Source: an uncultured Anaerolineales bacterium
Lineage (GTDB): Bacteria; Chloroflexota; Anaerolineae; Anaerolineales; Villigracilaceae
Direction: 5' to 3'
Length of the DNA: 13,393 nucleotides
Assembly (NCBI GenBank): GCA_937928015.1
Contig: CALFXA010000224.1
Location: 1-13,393 of the forward strand
Position numbers and translations under genes: made by a program. Within the stretch, counting starts at the first letter, position 1, and each line of letters opens with the position of its first letter. Of the stretch, positions 4,022-9,373 are shown piece by piece. The notes beneath the pieces are model-generated. The model was not told where the DNA came from, did not search any database, and saw only the letters and a program-made list of their open reading frames with translations.

Positions 4022-5422
4022 CTATGCCCAGCCCAGCAGCCTTGCGATGGTCGCCGTCAGGAAGGTGACCAGGAAGGCGGTGCCCAGGGTGATGACCACG
4101 CTCAGGGTTGCCCACTTGAGGGACTTGGTTTCCTTGTAGATGGTGATGATGGTCGTGCCGCATGGATTATGCAGCAGGGCGAACAGCATCAGGTTGATGG
4201 CGGTCAGCATGGTCCAGCCGTGGCCGCCGATCAGCAGCGAGCGGATGGCTTCGTTCGTGGACGGGCCGTCCACCATCATGCCCGCGCCCATGTACATCAT
4301 CATCATGGTCGGGACGACGATCTCGTTGGCGGGGATGGCGATGATGTACGAGAGCAGGATCACGCCGTCCAGGCCGAGCAGCACGCCGAAGGGGTTGAGC
4401 CAGCCCGCGATGACGGCGGCCAGGTTCGAGGTCCCGACGGGGACGTTTGCCAGAATCCAGATGATGGCGCCCGCGGGAGCGGCAGTCTGCATCGCGCGCC
4501 ACAGCACGAAGATGGTGCGGTCGATGAGCGAGGTATAGAGGATGCGGCTCACGTTCGGGCGGCGGTAGGGCGGAAGTTCCAGCGTGAAGGCCGAAGCTTC
4601 GCCTTTGAGCACCGTGCGCGAGAGGATCCACGACATGACGAAGGTGAATCCTACGCCGATCAGCACCACGCCGACGACGGTTGCCGCGGCGATGATGGAG
4701 GAGGTGAACCCGCCGAAGCCTGCCGCCACGAAGACCGTGGCCAGCATGATCAGGGTCGGGAAGCGACCGTTGCACGGGACGAAGTTGTTGGTCAGGATGG
4801 CGATCAGGCGTTCGCGCGGCGAGTCGATCACGCGCGTGGCGACCACGCCCGCGGCATTGCAGCCGAAGCCCATCGCCATTGTCAGCGATTGCTTGCCGTG
4901 TGCGCCCGCTTTCTTGAACATCCAGTCCAGATTGAAGGCCACGCGCGGCAGGTAGCCCAGGTCTTCGAGGAAGGTGAAGGCGGGGAAGAAGATCGCCATG
5001 GGTGGCAACATGACCGAGATGACCCAGGCCAGTCCGCGATAGATACCGTCCCAGACGAAGCCTGTGATCCACCAGGGCGCATGAATGTACTCGAACAGGG
5101 TGCGGCCCCAGTCCCCGAGGGTGAACAGCACCGTGGCGATGGCGTCAGAGGCGACGTTGGCGCCCTCGACGGTCAGCCAGATCAGCGCGGCCAACAGCAA
5201 TAGCATGATCGGCAGGCCCGTAATGGGTGAGGTGACCAGGCGGTCGATCTTCTGGTCGAAGTCGTATTTTTTGTCCGAGGCGGTCTTGACGGCGCGGTGC
5301 GCGATGCTCTCGGCCTCGGAGTACATGGACTTGACGATCTCGTCGCGGAAGCCCGTGCTGAGATTGTTGCGCAGGGCCTCGGCCTTGGCGAGCACGTCGT
5401 TGGGTTGGATGGAGGTCGTCAT
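4022..5422 (-). CDS. feoB: Ferrous iron transporter B, membrane permease half (split FeoB)
   Basis: A 466-residue polytopic inner-membrane protein corresponding to the transport part of FeoB, which imports Fe(II). Residues about 10-60 match the helical linker of FeoB up to FDQKIDRLVTSPITGLPI, followed by about eight transmembrane segments. FeoB gate signatures are present: FLEDLGYLPRVAF (151-163), GFGCNAAGV (185-193, Cys188), NNFVPCNGRFP (212-222, Cys217), LELPPYRRPN (281-290) and HNPCGTT (418-424, Cys421). A run of seven Met within 373-383 is unusual. The GTPase domain is absent and encoded by the gene just upstream, which overlaps this one by one base (TAATG at 5420-5424); GGAAGG/AGG motifs upstream can serve as ribosome site. 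Whole FeoB is usually about 700-770 residues and the two halves add up to 744. Confidence 0.95.
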   Translation of the reverse strand: MTTSIQPNDVLAKAEALRNNLSTGFRDEIVKSMYSEAESIAHRAVKTASDKKYDFDQKIDRLVTSPITGLPIMLLLLAALIWLTVEGANVASDAIATVLFTLGDWGRTLFEYIHAPWWITGFVWDGIYRGLAWVISVMLPPMAIFFPAFTFLEDLGYLPRVAFNLDWMFKKAGAHGKQSLTMAMGFGCNAAGVVATRVIDSPRERLIAILTNNFVPCNGRFPTLIMLATVFVAAGFGGFTSSIIAAATVVGVVLIGVGFTFVMSWILSRTVLKGEASAFTLELPPYRRPNVSRILYTSLIDRTIFVLWRAMQTAAPAGAIIWILANVPVGTSNLAAVIAGWLNPFGVLLGLDGVILLSYIIAIPANEIVVPTMMMMYMGAGMMVDGPSTNEAIRSLLIGGHGWTMLTAINLMLFALLHNPCGTTIITIYKETKSLKWATLSVVITLGTAFLVTFLTATIARLLGWA

Positions 5423-6258
5423 TATTGCCTGCCTTCCACAGACATCTTTCCGCTGAATTGCACGTCGGCGCGCTGCTGACGGGCAACGATCTCATTCAGT
5501 TCGCCGCTGGTGATGGCCTGCTGCACGCGCGCGTCGCCGTCCAGCAGGCGGATGGCCAGCCAGCGTGCATTCGGGATGCCAGGCGACATCTGCTCGATCA
5601 TGGCGGACAACTCGTGGACCGCCTTCTGGAACTCGGGCGTGCCGTTCACGCGGATGGGCTTGGTGGCGACCTTGCCTTCGATCACTTCGGCCACCGTCGC
5701 CAGCAGGGTGTGGACTCCCTCTCCGCTGCGGGCGGTGATCGGGATGGCGGGCACGCCCAGGTCGCGGCTCAGGGAGCGGGCGTCCACTTCCAGGCCTTTG
5801 CGGCGGGCCTCGTCCATCAGGTTGACGGCCACCACCACGTGGTCGGTGATCTCCATCACCTGCATGGCCAGGTTGAGGTTGCGTTCCAATGCGGTTGCAT
5901 CCGTGACGACGATGGTGCAGTCGGGCTGGCCGAACAGGATGAAGTCACGGGCCACTTCCTCGTCCTGTGAAGCGGAGAGCAGCGAGTAGGTGCCAGGCAG
6001 ATCCACCAGTTTGTATTTGACGTTGTTGAACTGGTAACCGCCCTCGGCGCGCGTGACGGTCTTGCCGGGCCAGTTTCCCGTGTGCTGCTTGAGCCCCGTC
6101 AGGGTGTTGAAGAGCGTGGACTTGCCCGTGTTGGGGTTGCCCGCCAGCGCGATGACGCGGTCGAAATCACCGACCTTGATGCCCATTTGTTCGAGTTGAT
6201 AAAAGGCGGGGCAGGTCTCGCAATGTTCGGTGGGGAGGTCGATTTTTGTGTTGGTCAT
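5422..6258 (-). CDS. feoB: Ferrous iron transporter B, GTPase half (split FeoB)
   Basis: A 278-residue cytoplasmic G protein corresponding to the N-terminal domain of FeoB. The G motifs are all present: G1 GNPNTGKST (40-48), G2 Thr67 in NWPGKTV, G3 DLPG (86-89), G4 NLMD (146-149) and G5 TARSGEG (175-181). Part of the helical GDI-like region follows (ARWLAIRLLDGD, 231-242), then about 36 residues of charged linker. Before the G domain there is a short extension with H12-C13-E-T-C16, a CxxC motif not present in typical FeoB, where the G domain is near residue 1. A GAGG Shine-Dalgarno lies about six bases before the ATG. The upstream DtxR/FeoA fusion ends 8 bases away. Its stop overlaps the permease start, so the halves should be made in near-equal amounts. 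Confidence 0.95.
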   Translation of the reverse strand: MTNTKIDLPTEHCETCPAFYQLEQMGIKVGDFDRVIALAGNPNTGKSTLFNTLTGLKQHTGNWPGKTVTRAEGGYQFNNVKYKLVDLPGTYSLLSASQDEEVARDFILFGQPDCTIVVTDATALERNLNLAMQVMEITDHVVVAVNLMDEARRKGLEVDARSLSRDLGVPAIPITARSGEGVHTLLATVAEVIEGKVATKPIRVNGTPEFQKAVHELSAMIEQMSPGIPNARWLAIRLLDGDARVQQAITSGELNEIVARQQRADVQFSGKMSVEGRQ

Positions 6259-6266
6259 GGTTTCCT

Positions 6267-7271
6267 CTAAACAGGTTTCACCCAGATCTGCGCGGCCTGA
6301 TCCTTGCGCAGGGCGATCAGCGTGCCGCGCACGCGGTAGGCACGCGGGTCGCCGAAGAAGTTTTGCAGTTCGGGATAGATGAGCGTGCCGGGCGTCAGGC
6401 CCAGGTCGAGGAAGCGGCGGCGGGTGAAGCCCTGCACGGCCTCGTCGAGCGTGACGATCTCGGCTTTTTGCGCGTGGGCCAATTCCACCAGCGGCACGGC
6501 CTCGCGCTTGAGCAGTTCGCTCTCGGGCAGGGCGGCCACGGTCACATTGGCGGCCACGGTCGGGGCCAGACGGTATTCGTTCTCGCCGTCGCTCAGGACT
6601 AGGCGCTGCGGCGTGCGCTCCAAGATGCGGATTGTCTGCCCGAGGCGCAATCCCGCCGCGAGGATTTGCTCGAAGGCGATGGCGGGTTCATCCTCCAGGT
6701 GGACGATGCGGGCGGGACGATCAGCCTGCCACGCCGTCAGCGGCGTTCCCTCCGCTTTGGGCAGGGACCCCTCGCGGGTGGGGATGAAGTCGCCGTGCGG
6801 ATCGCGCGTCGGGTGGCCGAGGGCCGCGTCCAGCGCGTCGAGTTGAGCCTCGGTCAAACTGTGCTCGCGGCGGTGCGCCTCGCCATGGATCTGCCCCAGC
6901 GGCATGCGGGCCTCGTCGGCCAGATAGCGCTCCCACAAGCGGTGCGCGCGGACCACGTGCAAGGCCCAGCGTTCGCCCTCGGCGGTGAGATGCAATTCCG
7001 CGCCGCGCGATTCGACCAGGCCCTGAGTCTCCATCGACTCGATCAGGCGCGTAACGTTGGCGCGCGAAAGGTCGAGCGTGCCGCCCAATGACTCGGGCGA
7101 GGCGTGTCGTCCGCTTTGTTCGCGGTCGAGCAGGTGCTTGAGCGCATCCTCCACCTGCTCGCGTTCGTAGGCCGTGCGCCAGTTCTTGTAGAGAGCCAGC
7201 AGGCCCAGGCGCGGCAGGAAGAGGATCAGCGCCAGCGCAATGACAAGAATGCTCCAATACAGCAGATTCAT
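6267..7271 (-). CDS. Membrane-anchored DtxR-like protein with two FeoA-like domains
   Basis: A 334-residue protein with an unusual layout. An N-terminal transmembrane helix (about 4-27, followed by basic residues, so the rest is predicted cytoplasmic) leads into a winged helix-turn-helix at about 40-100. Next is a DtxR-type metal-binding and dimerisation domain (about 100-165), a degenerate FeoA/SH3-like domain (about 184-252) and a clear FeoA domain (about 258-334; RRRFLDLGLTPGT, FFGDPRAYRVRGTLIALR). Alignment by eye to diphtheria DtxR places metal ligands at H110, E114, H129, H133, E136 and H137, the H133 position being Cys102 in DtxR. No separate feoA is present, so this protein probably supplies FeoA function to the FeoB encoded directly downstream. 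It may sense metal at the membrane, bind DNA there, or have lost DNA binding; the sequence does not decide. An AGAGG ribosome site precedes the ATG. Confidence 0.9.
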   Translation of the reverse strand: MNLLYWSILVIALALILFLPRLGLLALYKNWRTAYEREQVEDALKHLLDREQSGRHASPESLGGTLDLSRANVTRLIESMETQGLVESRGAELHLTAEGERWALHVVRAHRLWERYLADEARMPLGQIHGEAHRREHSLTEAQLDALDAALGHPTRDPHGDFIPTREGSLPKAEGTPLTAWQADRPARIVHLEDEPAIAFEQILAAGLRLGQTIRILERTPQRLVLSDGENEYRLAPTVAANVTVAALPESELLKREAVPLVELAHAQKAEIVTLDEAVQGFTRRRFLDLGLTPGTLIYPELQNFFGDPRAYRVRGTLIALRKDQAAQIWVKPV

Positions 7272-7280
7272 GGAATGCCT

Positions 7281-7877
7281 CTATGATTTGAGTTTTGGCA
7301 GGAATGCGCCAGTGGTCTTCATGTAGTTTCGATATTCGTCGCCGAATTTGGCGATGAGGTTGGCTTCCTCTTTTGGCGTGCGGACGGCCATCGCGATGAA
7401 TGCCAGCGCAGCCATCATGATGATGAACCAGTTATCCGCCATCAGGCCGAACGCTCCGATAAAGGACGATCCGACCGTGTATAGCGGATGCCGCACCCAG
7501 TGATAGATTCCGCGCGTGACCAATTTGTGCTCCTTGCGGGTCGCGCTGGTGGGAGTGATGCCACTTCCGATGCTGACGAACAACCAGTAAATTCCGAGGA
7601 CGCACAGGCTGCCGATTCCCACGCCCAGCCAGCGGACCCAATCGGGCAGCCCGATCTTGGACCAACTCATCCAGGCGGGATGGACGAGGTACACCAGCGG
7701 GCCTAGCCAAAGGACCGACCCAACCAGCCGAATGATCGTCATCATGAGGTTGCCATCCGCGTTGCGCGAGACGGATTCGCCGCTGTTCCTGTCCGCTTTG
7801 GAGCGGAAGTAAATGGAGATGCCTGCTCCCGAGAACAGGATCAGGGCTGCCAGAATGCGAAAGATGTTTTCGTTCAT
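7281..7877 (-). CDS. Isoprenylcysteine carboxyl methyltransferase-like membrane protein
   Basis: A 198-residue integral membrane protein with about four or five hydrophobic segments (about 5-24, 48-66, 82-103, 138-165). The C-terminal half carries the signature of the ICMT/phospholipid N-methyltransferase superfamily: HKLVTRGIYHWVRHPLY (117-133), the EE pair 170-171 followed by KFGDEYRNYM (177-186), and AFLP near the end. These residues bind S-adenosylmethionine in characterised members, so a small-molecule, lipid or protein methylation role is likely; the substrate is unknown. It sits inside the metal operon, 9 bases before the DtxR/FeoA fusion gene and 63 bases after the DtxR gene. Its link to iron is by position only. 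The ribosome site before the ATG at 7877 is weak (AGG). Confidence 0.87.
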   Translation of the reverse strand: MNENIFRILAALILFSGAGISIYFRSKADRNSGESVSRNADGNLMMTIIRLVGSVLWLGPLVYLVHPAWMSWSKIGLPDWVRWLGVGIGSLCVLGIYWLFVSIGSGITPTSATRKEHKLVTRGIYHWVRHPLYTVGSSFIGAFGLMADNWFIIMMAALAFIAMAVRTPKEEANLIAKFGDEYRNYMKTTGAFLPKLKS

Positions 7878-7940: not shown

Positions 7941-8603
7941 CTATACAAAGACCCGCTGGGTGATGGCGAGTCCCACCACGAAGGCGGGTTGAGAGTCGAT
8001 TTGAAGGGTCAGATTGCCGTCGAACTCGGAATAACCGATTACGTGGACCTGCGCGCCTGGGATGAGTCCCAGCCCCTGCAGGTGGCGGAGAAAGGCGGGG
8101 TCGGCGCCATGGACCCGTTTGACGGTACCAGCCTCGCCCGTCCGCAATGAGGCCAGGGGGCGGGTGTCATCGCTGGGCATGGTCAGGTCGGCGGTGGGGA
8201 TGAGGTCGCCATGCGGATCTCGTGCAGGATTTCCCAACGCAGCGGCGATGCGGCGCTCGAAGTCCTCCGAGATGACGTGCTCCAGGCGGCAGGCTTCCTC
8301 GTGGACCTCGTCCCAGGTGTAGCCCAAGGTCTGGACGAGCCAGGTTTCGAGCAGGCGATGATGACGAATGACCTCCAGCGCGGCGCGCTCGCCCTCAGAT
8401 GTGAGGGTGACTCCTTGATGTTTCTTGTAGACGACCAGGGCAGGCGAGACATTGGCCAGTCGTTGCAACATGCCCGTCACCGAAGCGGGAGCCACGCTGA
8501 GACGTGCGGCCAGGTCGTTGGTGCTGGCAGGCGCGCCGTCGGCGCTCAGGTCGTAAATTTGTTTGAGGTAATCCTGAATGGACTGGGTGAGAATCTCCGA
8601 CAT
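7941..8603 (-). CDS. DtxR/MntR-family metal-dependent transcriptional regulator
   Basis: A 220-residue cytoplasmic repressor. A winged helix-turn-helix covers about 5-72 (recognition region TNDLAARLSVAPASVTGMLQ, 29-48). The metal-binding and dimerisation domain (73-140) keeps the complete DtxR ligand set by alignment: H82, E86, H101, C105, E108 and H109 in HHRLLE and HEEACRLEH, followed by PARDPHGDLIP. A C-terminal SH3/FeoA-like domain covers about 148-220. Ligand identity favours iron-type DtxR/IdeR over manganese-type MntR, but this is not certain. ATG 8603 is chosen because it overlaps the upstream stop by one base (TAATG); a TTG at 8618 would add five residues. It probably represses the operon at the palindrome near 9327-9342 when loaded with metal. 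Confidence 0.94.
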   Translation of the reverse strand: MSEILTQSIQDYLKQIYDLSADGAPASTNDLAARLSVAPASVTGMLQRLANVSPALVVYKKHQGVTLTSEGERAALEVIRHHRLLETWLVQTLGYTWDEVHEEACRLEHVISEDFERRIAAALGNPARDPHGDLIPTADLTMPSDDTRPLASLRTGEAGTVKRVHGADPAFLRHLQGLGLIPGAQVHVIGYSEFDGNLTLQIDSQPAFVVGLAITQRVFV

Positions 8604-9304
8604 TAGATACCGTTCCAAAGGGTGAGGGTGACGCAGCTAAAGAAAGCGAGGTAGGCAATATTGAAACCCGCGCCTTCGGTCCAGTCACGGACGAATTGCG
8701 GGAGGATGCGCTTGCCGAACATCCAGACGATGGTGACTGTGACGGGGTTGACGGCGGCCATCCAGATCGGGAAGGATGTCCCGCCCTGGGCGACCAGGAT
8801 CGAGAACAGGATCGAGGCCAGGGTGGCCGCCAGCATCAAGGGAACATAGGTGATGAGGAGTACTTTGCGATGACGGGCGATCATGTCTGCGATCACAGGC
8901 TGGGAGGATTCATCTACCTGATTCAACGCGTGGGCGTATTCGCCCATGTAAAAGAACGAGCCGTGCACGAACGCGCCCACCACCGACGCAAACCCAAACA
9001 GCAGGGCGGTGACCGGGGCCAGCACGGACCCCGAGGCTGCCAGCCCCTGATAAGTCAGCCAAAACCCCACCAGAATCAGCGGTGTGGAGAAGACGCCAAC
9101 CAGCGCGCCGCCCATCATTCGGGCAGGGGAGAGCGCGGCCATCCGCTCTGCATCGGACAGGAGTTTGGCAAAGGGCTTGAGTTTGGGATACTCGTCGAGG
9201 TTTACCTTGCCGGCGAGCAGCATTACATCCCCGACTGCGTATAGGAATGCTCCCAGGATGGCAAGGAGACCCGTTAATTGTAAGGAGAAGTTTGAAATAT
9301 TCAT
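8603..9304 (-). CDS. Six-helix membrane protein of unknown function, first gene of the metal operon
   Basis: A 233-residue integral membrane protein with about six predicted transmembrane helices (about 9-31, 64-86, 96-118, 148-172, 178-200, 211-231). Intramembrane or membrane-border polar residues include G25-D26, H114, E122 and H125 in the segment VHGSFFYMGEYAH; such a His/Glu cluster could bind a metal or carry protons. A likeness to DUF6796-type proteins is suspected from memory only. It is the promoter-proximal gene, directly behind a DtxR-type operator, and is translationally coupled to the regulator gene (TAATG). The start at 9304 has only a weak AGG ribosome site. A role in metal transport or sensing is inferred from context alone. 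Confidence 0.88.
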   Translation of the reverse strand: MNISNFSLQLTGLLAILGAFLYAVGDVMLLAGKVNLDEYPKLKPFAKLLSDAERMAALSPARMMGGALVGVFSTPLILVGFWLTYQGLAASGSVLAPVTALLFGFASVVGAFVHGSFFYMGEYAHALNQVDESSQPVIADMIARHRKVLLITYVPLMLAATLASILFSILVAQGGTSFPIWMAAVNPVTVTIVWMFGKRILPQFVRDWTEGAGFNIAYLAFFSCVTLTLWNGI

Positions 9305-9326: not shown

Positions 9327-9342
9327 TTTAGCTTAGACTAAA
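9327..9342. promoter_or_regulatory. Candidate DtxR-family operator
   Basis: TTTAGCTTAGACTAAA is a palindrome with arms TTTAG / CTAAA and a central TA, 12 of 16 positions symmetric. It is close to the TTTAGGTTAACCTAAA-type sites known for DtxR/MntR/SirR regulators. It lies just downstream of the predicted -10 of the minus-strand operon and 22 bases before the first start codon, a position suited to repression by the DtxR-like protein encoded second in the operon. Confidence 0.7.
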
Positions 9343-9345
9343 AGT

Positions 9346-9373
9346 ATTTTACTCTTAATTAGTCAACTGTCAA
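9346..9373 (-). promoter_or_regulatory. Promoter of the six-gene metal operon
   Basis: Read on the minus strand, a perfect -35 TTGACA (9373-9368) is followed after 16 bases by -10 TAAAAT (9351-9346). Transcription would start at about 9339, inside the DtxR-type palindrome. An alternative -10 TATTAT (minus strand, about 9324-9319) also exists but lacks a clear -35. Confidence 0.65.

Follow-up and report, generated by a model that had tools for sequence, protein, structure and literature searches.

A predicted membrane-anchored variant of the twin-FeoA DtxR proteins and its proposed role in a split Feo system

PgMntR (PG1044) of Porphyromonas gingivalis is described as a very soluble DtxR-type protein with twin FeoA domains, which is encoded in the same operon as feoB2 and binds the promoter of that operon; its second FeoA domain is needed for manganese and DNA binding by PgMntR itself, and FeoB2, its operon partner, is a manganese transporter (PMC4805248). 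A subfamily was proposed in that work, its matches spanning 13 genera and three phyla, and the S1 figure legend names an Anaerolinea homologue (PMC4805248), so that a member of the membrane-form family considered here may already have been aligned there. The DtxR/IdeR/MntR repressors (5zr6, 8pvt/8pw0 (DR2539) and 1fx7) are soluble DNA-binding proteins with one SH3 domain or none.

What shuts FeoB off at metal sufficiency is, to our knowledge, an open question. FeoC, one of its partners, has a winged-helix fold. It is described as a small cytosolic protein (8.7 kDa in P. aeruginosa) that is mainly gammaproteobacterial, and in PMC9047314 as protecting FeoB from FtsH. For FeoI of S. maltophilia, one helix is predicted and a two-hybrid test showed an interaction with FeoB; it is reported to be dispensable for ferrous iron uptake (PMC9047314). 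As described, neither FeoC nor FeoI has a DtxR metal domain or a FeoA domain. In the FeoAB fusion of B. fragilis, FeoA is reported to stabilise FeoB in its GTP-bound state; the same paper calls the cooperation of FeoA and FeoB enigmatic, and it left FeoA-DtxR fusions out of its survey data (PMC8980893).

The window, that is, the whole stretch of 13,393 nucleotides that was analysed, from an uncultured Anaerolineales bacterium, carries a minus-strand run of six genes encoding, in order, a DUF6796 protein, a soluble DtxR, an ICMT-like methyltransferase, a 334-residue protein, and the N and C halves of FeoB (Table 1). The architecture that an earlier note on this DNA had read in the 334-residue protein, with a membrane helix, a winged helix-turn-helix (HTH), a DtxR metal domain and two FeoA-like domains, was confirmed by profiles and by the predicted structure, and its placement 8 bases upstream of a split feoB was borne out by gene coordinates and profiles. 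Profile and structure comparison find both the winged helix and the Fe_dep_repr_C metal-binding and dimerisation fold, and residues 35-248, including the SH3 domain, share the fold of the repressors 5zr6, 8pvt/8pw0 and 1fx7, together with their metal ligands; unlike those repressors, the 334-residue protein appears to be anchored and has two FeoA-fold domains. The FeoA profile does match both C-terminal segments, as had been claimed, but the first of them is the ordinary SH3 domain of DtxR. The second has the fold of the FeoA of the B. fragilis FeoAB fusion (7r7b), matches the FeoA profile and adjoins feoB; in FeoAB the fusion partner of FeoA is FeoB itself, whereas here it is a DtxR-type protein with a predicted membrane anchor. 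The DtxR HTH profile PF01325 scores only 15.8 bits against a cut-off of 26, and among precomputed domains it is listed for none of the 120 best of 5,011 membrane-form relatives and for 119 of the 120 best of 6,104 soluble twin-FeoA proteins. An identity with FeoC was rejected at the sequence level, PF09012 being absent from the 11 families listed at E <= 1, a list from which the HMMER filters drop most matches above E ~0.1.

Table 1. Features of the six-gene run and its promoter region (positions in the window)
Feature	Position	Strand	Basis or remark
DtxR/twin-FeoA protein with predicted membrane anchor, 334 aa	6267..7271	-	Subject of the finding
Shine-Dalgarno-like AGAGG, 6 nt before the ATG at 7271	7278..7282	-	Sequence reading
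Predicted N-terminal membrane helix, residues 3-18	7218..7265	-	AF2 model and hydropathy
Winged helix-turn-helix, residues 38-95	6987..7160	-	Profile and model
Recognition helix, residues 69-82, fast-evolving in the membrane-anchored family	7026..7067	-	Identity and site rates
DtxR metal-binding and dimerisation domain, residues 96-165	6777..6986	-	Profile and ligands
First FeoA-fold domain (the DtxR SH3 domain), residues 182-247	6531..6728	-	Profile and fold
HLEDEP motif inside the SH3 domain, residues 191-196	6684..6701	-	Ligand positions
Second, canonical FeoA domain, residues 259-333	6273..6497	-	
FeoB N half: G domain and start of the cytosolic helical domain, N-terminal CxxCP	5422..6258	-	
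FeoB C half, with Gate and FeoB_C membrane domains; overlaps the N half by 1 base	4022..5422	-	
ICMT-like methyltransferase gene, same operon	7281..7877	-	
Soluble DtxR: HTH, metal domain and one SH3/FeoA domain; proposed operator reader	7941..8618	-	
DUF6796 protein, first gene of the run	8603..9304	-	
DtxR box, 13/19 to TTAGGTTAGCCTAACCTAA; touches the -10 end of the promoter	9328..9346	.	
Sigma-70-like promoter TTGACA-16-TAAAAT, 11/12	9346..9373	-	

The 334-residue protein and PgMntR have the same domain order over about 310 residues, and both are encoded beside a feoB. In a comparison made through the residue numbers printed in PMC4805248, not by sequence alignment, 11 of the 12 predicted PgMntR ligands (D19, H85, E89, H104, E111, H112, D132, H134, H166, D169 and E170) are matched colinearly at an offset of 25 residues (23 for D19), with H191, D194 and E195 of the HLEDEP motif falling on His166, Asp169 and Glu170; the twelfth, Cys108, corresponds to His133, at a position where the membrane form mostly has H, Q or E instead of the C or E of DtxR/MntR metalloregulators. 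Two C-terminal FeoA domains, colinear ligands and a gene next to feoB are thus shared with the PgMntR-type subfamily, but its soluble, helix-free form is not: in PgMntR the HTH is preceded by about 12 residues, whereas the 334-residue protein has an additional predicted membrane helix there, an unconserved reading helix and a split FeoB. Hence the architecture, which had been presented as unusual, is so in its added helix and not in the twin FeoA domains; a twin-FeoA DtxR beside feoB is known already, and what is new is a conserved membrane-bound variant. Searches of the open literature turned up no membrane-anchored DtxR-FeoA protein among the titles and abstracts that they listed, and the anchor, the loss of the reading head, a split FeoB with an N-terminal CxxCP and the proposed conversion into a subunit were likewise not found there.

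A second point of comparison is provided by soluble twin-FeoA DtxR proteins from the phylum of G001 (L085-L088; P0121-P0240, the named rows mostly Dehalococcoidia), which, like the membrane form, combine HTH, metal domain and two FeoA domains and are encoded directly upstream of feoB, and for which, at L085-L088, no separate FeoA match was found within 8-10 kb. They differ from the membrane form in lacking a membrane helix and HxEDEP, in having a conserved reading helix, in carrying Cys at position 133, Glu where it has D42 and CPHGH where it has DPHGD, and in being paired with a one-piece FeoB. They look like intermediates between the PgMntR-type repressors and the membrane form.

Relatives were collected by a scan with one genome per species, which gave 230, and the best 80 loci by similarity to the window were kept. 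These are mostly from Chloroflexota, with Planctomycetota, Acidobacteriota, one Gemmatimonadetes and one Methylomirabilis among the remainder (taxa per record); the nearest comes from an uncultured Chloroflexi MAG (L001, 96% identity), and many of the next records are Anaerolineales or Anaerolinea. Among 151 genomes drawn from the phylum to which G001 belongs, G001 itself counted, seven encode a relative that starts at profile position 1-4 with E < 1e-125. Alignment and rate counts leave out L054, L055, L058 and L072, which are cut or frameshifted (L011 is also left out of A1), the helix count over 78 relatives leaves out L054 and L072, and genome-wide counts cover the genomes of 29 relatives. 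Of the 80 loci, 27 have an ICMT-like methyltransferase frame, which often separates the gene of the soluble DtxR from the 334-aa-type gene and is sometimes duplicated or triplicated. Elsewhere in the window, 1394-1903 on the plus strand, within ORF 1211-1903, encodes a Gly/Met-rich protein with a signal-like N-terminus.

We propose, with a probability of roughly 0.6 and on the basis of sequence comparison and a predicted structure, that the 334-residue protein serves a second, split Feo system as a metal-sensing accessory subunit anchored in the membrane, and that it derives from a DtxR repressor that no longer reads DNA. The ancestor would have been a DtxR-type repressor with twin FeoA domains in which DNA reading stopped. 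The N-terminal helix would anchor the protein in the inner membrane with its soluble part in the cytoplasm, the C-terminal FeoA domain would replace the missing small FeoA and dock on the separate FeoB G-domain protein, and the DtxR metal core, together with the HxEDEP motif of the SH3 domain, would bind cytosolic Fe2+ or Mn2+ and dimerise. A metal-induced change would then alter FeoA docking, the GTPase state or the assembly of the FeoB halves, such that uptake would be set directly by the metal level, the metal carried by the split Feo presumably being Fe2+ or Mn2+. The winged helix would be retained as a fold, comparable to FeoC, and transcription of the operon would be a separate matter, left to the soluble DtxR (7941-8618) at the 9328-9346 box. 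As for the longer history, in which a repressor became a subunit of the transporter it presumably once repressed, giving up its DNA-reading head but retaining sensor core and FeoA domain, FeoB was split, Fe2+ or Mn2+ came to gate the importer directly and a soluble paralogue kept transcription, we would give it even odds.

The linkage to FeoB is close throughout the family. FeoB-N lies downstream in 77 of the 80 loci, and the other three contigs stop at most 109 bases from the gene; FeoB-C follows in 74, the six misses being contigs that end within 1,033 bases; the estimated stop-to-start gap to FeoB-N ranges from -26 to 115 nt, four loci having longer ones. In three loci (L015, L017 and L045), 681 to 1,537 nt separate the membrane-form gene from FeoB-N, with an ICMT-like frame in the gap of L017 and L045. 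Wherever both halves of FeoB were seen they lie in two frames, except in an acidobacterial locus (L078:4492-6840) whose membrane-form gene precedes a FeoB with both halves in one frame, so that the split is not obligatory for having a membrane-form protein. Residues 13-17 of the FeoB N half (6208-6222, minus strand) form a CxxCP motif, of which both cysteines are present in 77 of 78 sequences and the proline in 73; neither the second FeoB of L081 nor the intact FeoB of L085-L088 shows a CxxCP among its first residues.

Evolutionary distances point in the same direction. Across 52 loci, r is 0.92 between the distances of the second FeoA domain and those of FeoB-N, and 0.83 as a partial value once the soluble DtxR is accounted for, compared to 0.86/0.73 for the metal domain, 0.84/0.56 for the winged helix, 0.82/0.56 for the SH3 domain and 0.75/0.44 for the N-terminus, mirror-tree values of this kind being inflated by shared ancestry. 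That the highest value belongs to the second FeoA domain supports, without proving it, a contact of this domain with FeoB-N. On the other hand, the second FeoA domain of PgMntR is needed for that protein's own binding functions, so in the 334-residue protein it may serve folding rather than FeoB docking.

The earlier note had held that no separate feoA exists here. This is true of the operon and of the 80 related loci: frames of any length were covered (3,119 to 21,005 bases per locus, 95 frames with any match) with a query that finds the FeoA of L081-L084 at 31-34 bits, and no FeoA-type match was found outside DtxR-type frames, the operons of close relatives included. It does not extend to whole genomes, since a FeoA-domain frame occurs elsewhere in 27 of the 29 relatives' genomes, next to a second FeoB that exceeds the TIGR00437 cut-off and has at least one such frame beside it. 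This count was judged by eye from profile matches; in 23 of the 27 the FeoA frame has at most 166 aa, while in G002, G003, G004 and G022 it exceeds 250 aa and is therefore a candidate small FeoA at most. Two genomes (G011 and G016) have two FeoA frames beside one FeoB, two (G021 and G026) have the split Feo system only, and in three (G014, G015 and G027) the FeoB beside the membrane-form protein also exceeds the TIGR00437 cut-off. As a rule, the other FeoB owns a FeoA and the split FeoB has the membrane-form protein, although this pairing is not clean, for G014 has a third FeoB pair (N and C; contig C21, ~195000-198500), below the TIGR00437 cut-off and between two DtxR-type frames.

The second Feo operon in the L001 genome encodes a DtxR (220 aa), a FeoA (90), a FeoB G domain (167), the remainder of FeoB (561) and a FeoC (95 aa), the last recognised by PF09012 at 35.2 bits against a cut-off of 21 in this single genome examined for FeoC, its other Pfam matches being HTH models. 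FeoA and FeoC are thus separate proteins there, whereas in the window a winged helix and a FeoA domain are combined in one chain with a predicted anchor. In that operon (L081:5427-8872) FeoB is cut right after the G domain, unlike in the window, and the FeoC has cysteines.

Conservation of the metal ligands is nearly complete. D42, H110, E114, H129, H137, D157, H159, H191 and D194 are invariant in 77 of 77 sequences, and E136 and E195 are each present in 76. These data bear on an alternative to metal sensing, namely that the protein is a passive FeoA carrier and assembly scaffold, its helix and DtxR dimer joining the FeoB halves and delivering FeoA to them, and its metal sites being structural or acting as an ion acceptor. 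The regular occurrence of FeoB in two frames downstream of the membrane-form gene would suit such a role, and partners of comparable kind are described in FeoI, with its single helix, and in FeoC, with its protection of FeoB (PMC9047314); like FeoI, the 334-residue protein would be a one-helix membrane partner of FeoB. Yet all but one of the DtxR-type ligand positions are conserved and the metal domain evolves slowly (site rate 0.61), which suggests regulated binding without proving it, and the unsplit FeoB of L078 shows that a membrane-form protein can occur where there are no halves to be joined. We therefore regard a passive scaffold as doubtful.

Metal sensing by an accessory subunit, our preferred reading, further assumes that DNA is no longer read, and here the recognition helix is informative. 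Over the 53 genomes that encode both the membrane form and the soluble DtxR, sequences of this helix share a mean pairwise identity of 0.40 in the former vs 0.72 in the latter; the corresponding values are 0.75 vs 0.71 for the metal domain and 0.66 vs 0.42 for the SH3 domain. Phylogeny-based site rates for residues 69-82 are 1.60 in the membrane form and 0.41 in the soluble DtxR, and at the exposed positions (70-75, 78 and 79) they are 2.19 and 0.27, respectively, against 0.44 in 86 soluble twin-FeoA proteins, a set of comparable spread (mean identity 0.63 vs 0.58) that was left from 120 after removal of one too short and of those >=90% alike and whose rates come from a faster tree search than those of the other two sets. 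The recognition helix is the fastest folded soluble segment of the membrane form, the wing following at 1.27 and the others at 0.48-0.71 (linkers, 0.81-1.54), and the remaining HTH helices are no faster than in the soluble DtxR. The wing of the soluble DtxR has a rate of 0.65, but that of the soluble twin-FeoA proteins also scores 1.00, so that the contrast with the latter is weak. Net charge averages -2.4 over the winged helix of the membrane form vs +1.7 in the soluble DtxR, and -0.5 vs +1.4 over the wing. The hallmarks of DtxR/MntR repressors, a conserved reading helix, a basic wing and a PF01325 match over cut-off, are thus all absent from the membrane form, whose DNA-reading surface, judged from these sequences, appears to have been lost. 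The fast evolution of the recognition helix could also mean shifting DNA targets.

As to a possible target, the site at 9327-9342 named in the earlier note does belong to a DtxR box of the operon promoter; this box, at 9328-9346 and directly after the promoter, is the best DtxR-consensus match in the window (13/19; the next, 12), but the better candidate for its reader is the soluble DtxR at 7941-8618, whose best model is MntR, scoring 220 and hence below the cut-off of 350. Across 1.18 Mb of loci there are 38 boxes of >=14/19 vs 10 after mononucleotide shuffling, and 29 of the 38, in 23 of the 80 loci, lie <=100 nt from the frame start of a DUF6796, soluble DtxR or membrane-form gene; the window's own box falls under this threshold, and the other 57 loci have no such box near those starts. 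Since the operator is conserved and so is the reading helix of the soluble DtxR, while that of the membrane form is not, the soluble protein is probably the one that reads the box. Where a box directly precedes the membrane-form gene (for example in L047, L062 and L067), the membrane form may regulate itself.

These observations weigh on a second alternative, in which the 334-residue protein is a membrane-tethered transcription factor that binds the DtxR box or other sites, perhaps lineage-specific ones, and couples the transport state to transcription. Its DtxR fold is intact, boxes lie near frame starts in the 23 loci mentioned, with the membrane-form gene first in several, and PgMntR, a soluble relative, binds its own operon promoter (PMC4805248). 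Against this stand the divergence of the recognition helix next to a conserved operator, the negative average charge of wing and winged helix, and a soluble DtxR with a conserved reading helix in 55 of the 80 loci. In two genomes (G019 and G026, those of L064 and L076) the membrane-form protein is the sole PF02742 match, among 20 of the 29 genomes examined for this domain, so that no soluble regulator of the DtxR family was found there, a point against our own reading; neither locus has a box of >=14/19 (n=2), which counts against the tethered factor. A tethered transcription factor thus seems unlikely to us. Of the two mechanisms that the earlier note had offered, a post-translational regulator is favoured; the weak constraint on the recognition helix and the net negative charge of the winged helix speak against DNA binding at the membrane.

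There remains the anchor itself, the membrane insertion of which is predicted from the model. The Kyte-Doolittle maximum over 19 residues at the N-terminus of the 334-residue protein is 2.62, and a segment of >=1.6 on the same measure is found in 74 of 78 relatives vs none of 54 soluble DtxR neighbours; a downstream start removing the helix in all homologues can thus be set aside. Since L067, L070 and L079 clearly do without the helix (L026, at 1.58, falls just short of the threshold), an anchor cannot be strictly required. Basic residues C-terminal to the helix predict an N-out/C-in topology with a cytoplasmic body; the mean net charge rises from ~0 ahead of the helix to +1.9 over the 20 residues that follow, and in 50 of 74 the following stretch has the higher charge, which weakly favours the same orientation. 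The site rate of the helix, 3.16, is as expected if hydrophobicity alone matters. That the hydrophobic segment is no anchor, and the protein an ordinary soluble repressor of the PgMntR kind, as its colinear ligands (all but Cys108 vs His133) and the three helix-free relatives might suggest, is very improbable given the prevalence of the segment in the membrane form and its absence from the soluble neighbours, the ribosome-binding site preceding the ATG and the unconserved reading helix.

In this protein, FeoA is fused to a known type of metal sensor, and both are predicted to sit anchored at the transporter, whose FeoB already comes as separate G-domain and membrane-gate proteins. If our reading as an accessory subunit is true, metal feedback on the FeoB GTPase would become accessible with purified parts, and the family would offer a clear case of a transcription factor turned transporter subunit, in which a gene switch gave way to direct control of the transporter. 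The soluble twin-FeoA proteins encoded beside feoB, of the Dehalococcoidia type and in P. gingivalis, would then be possible living intermediates of this transition.
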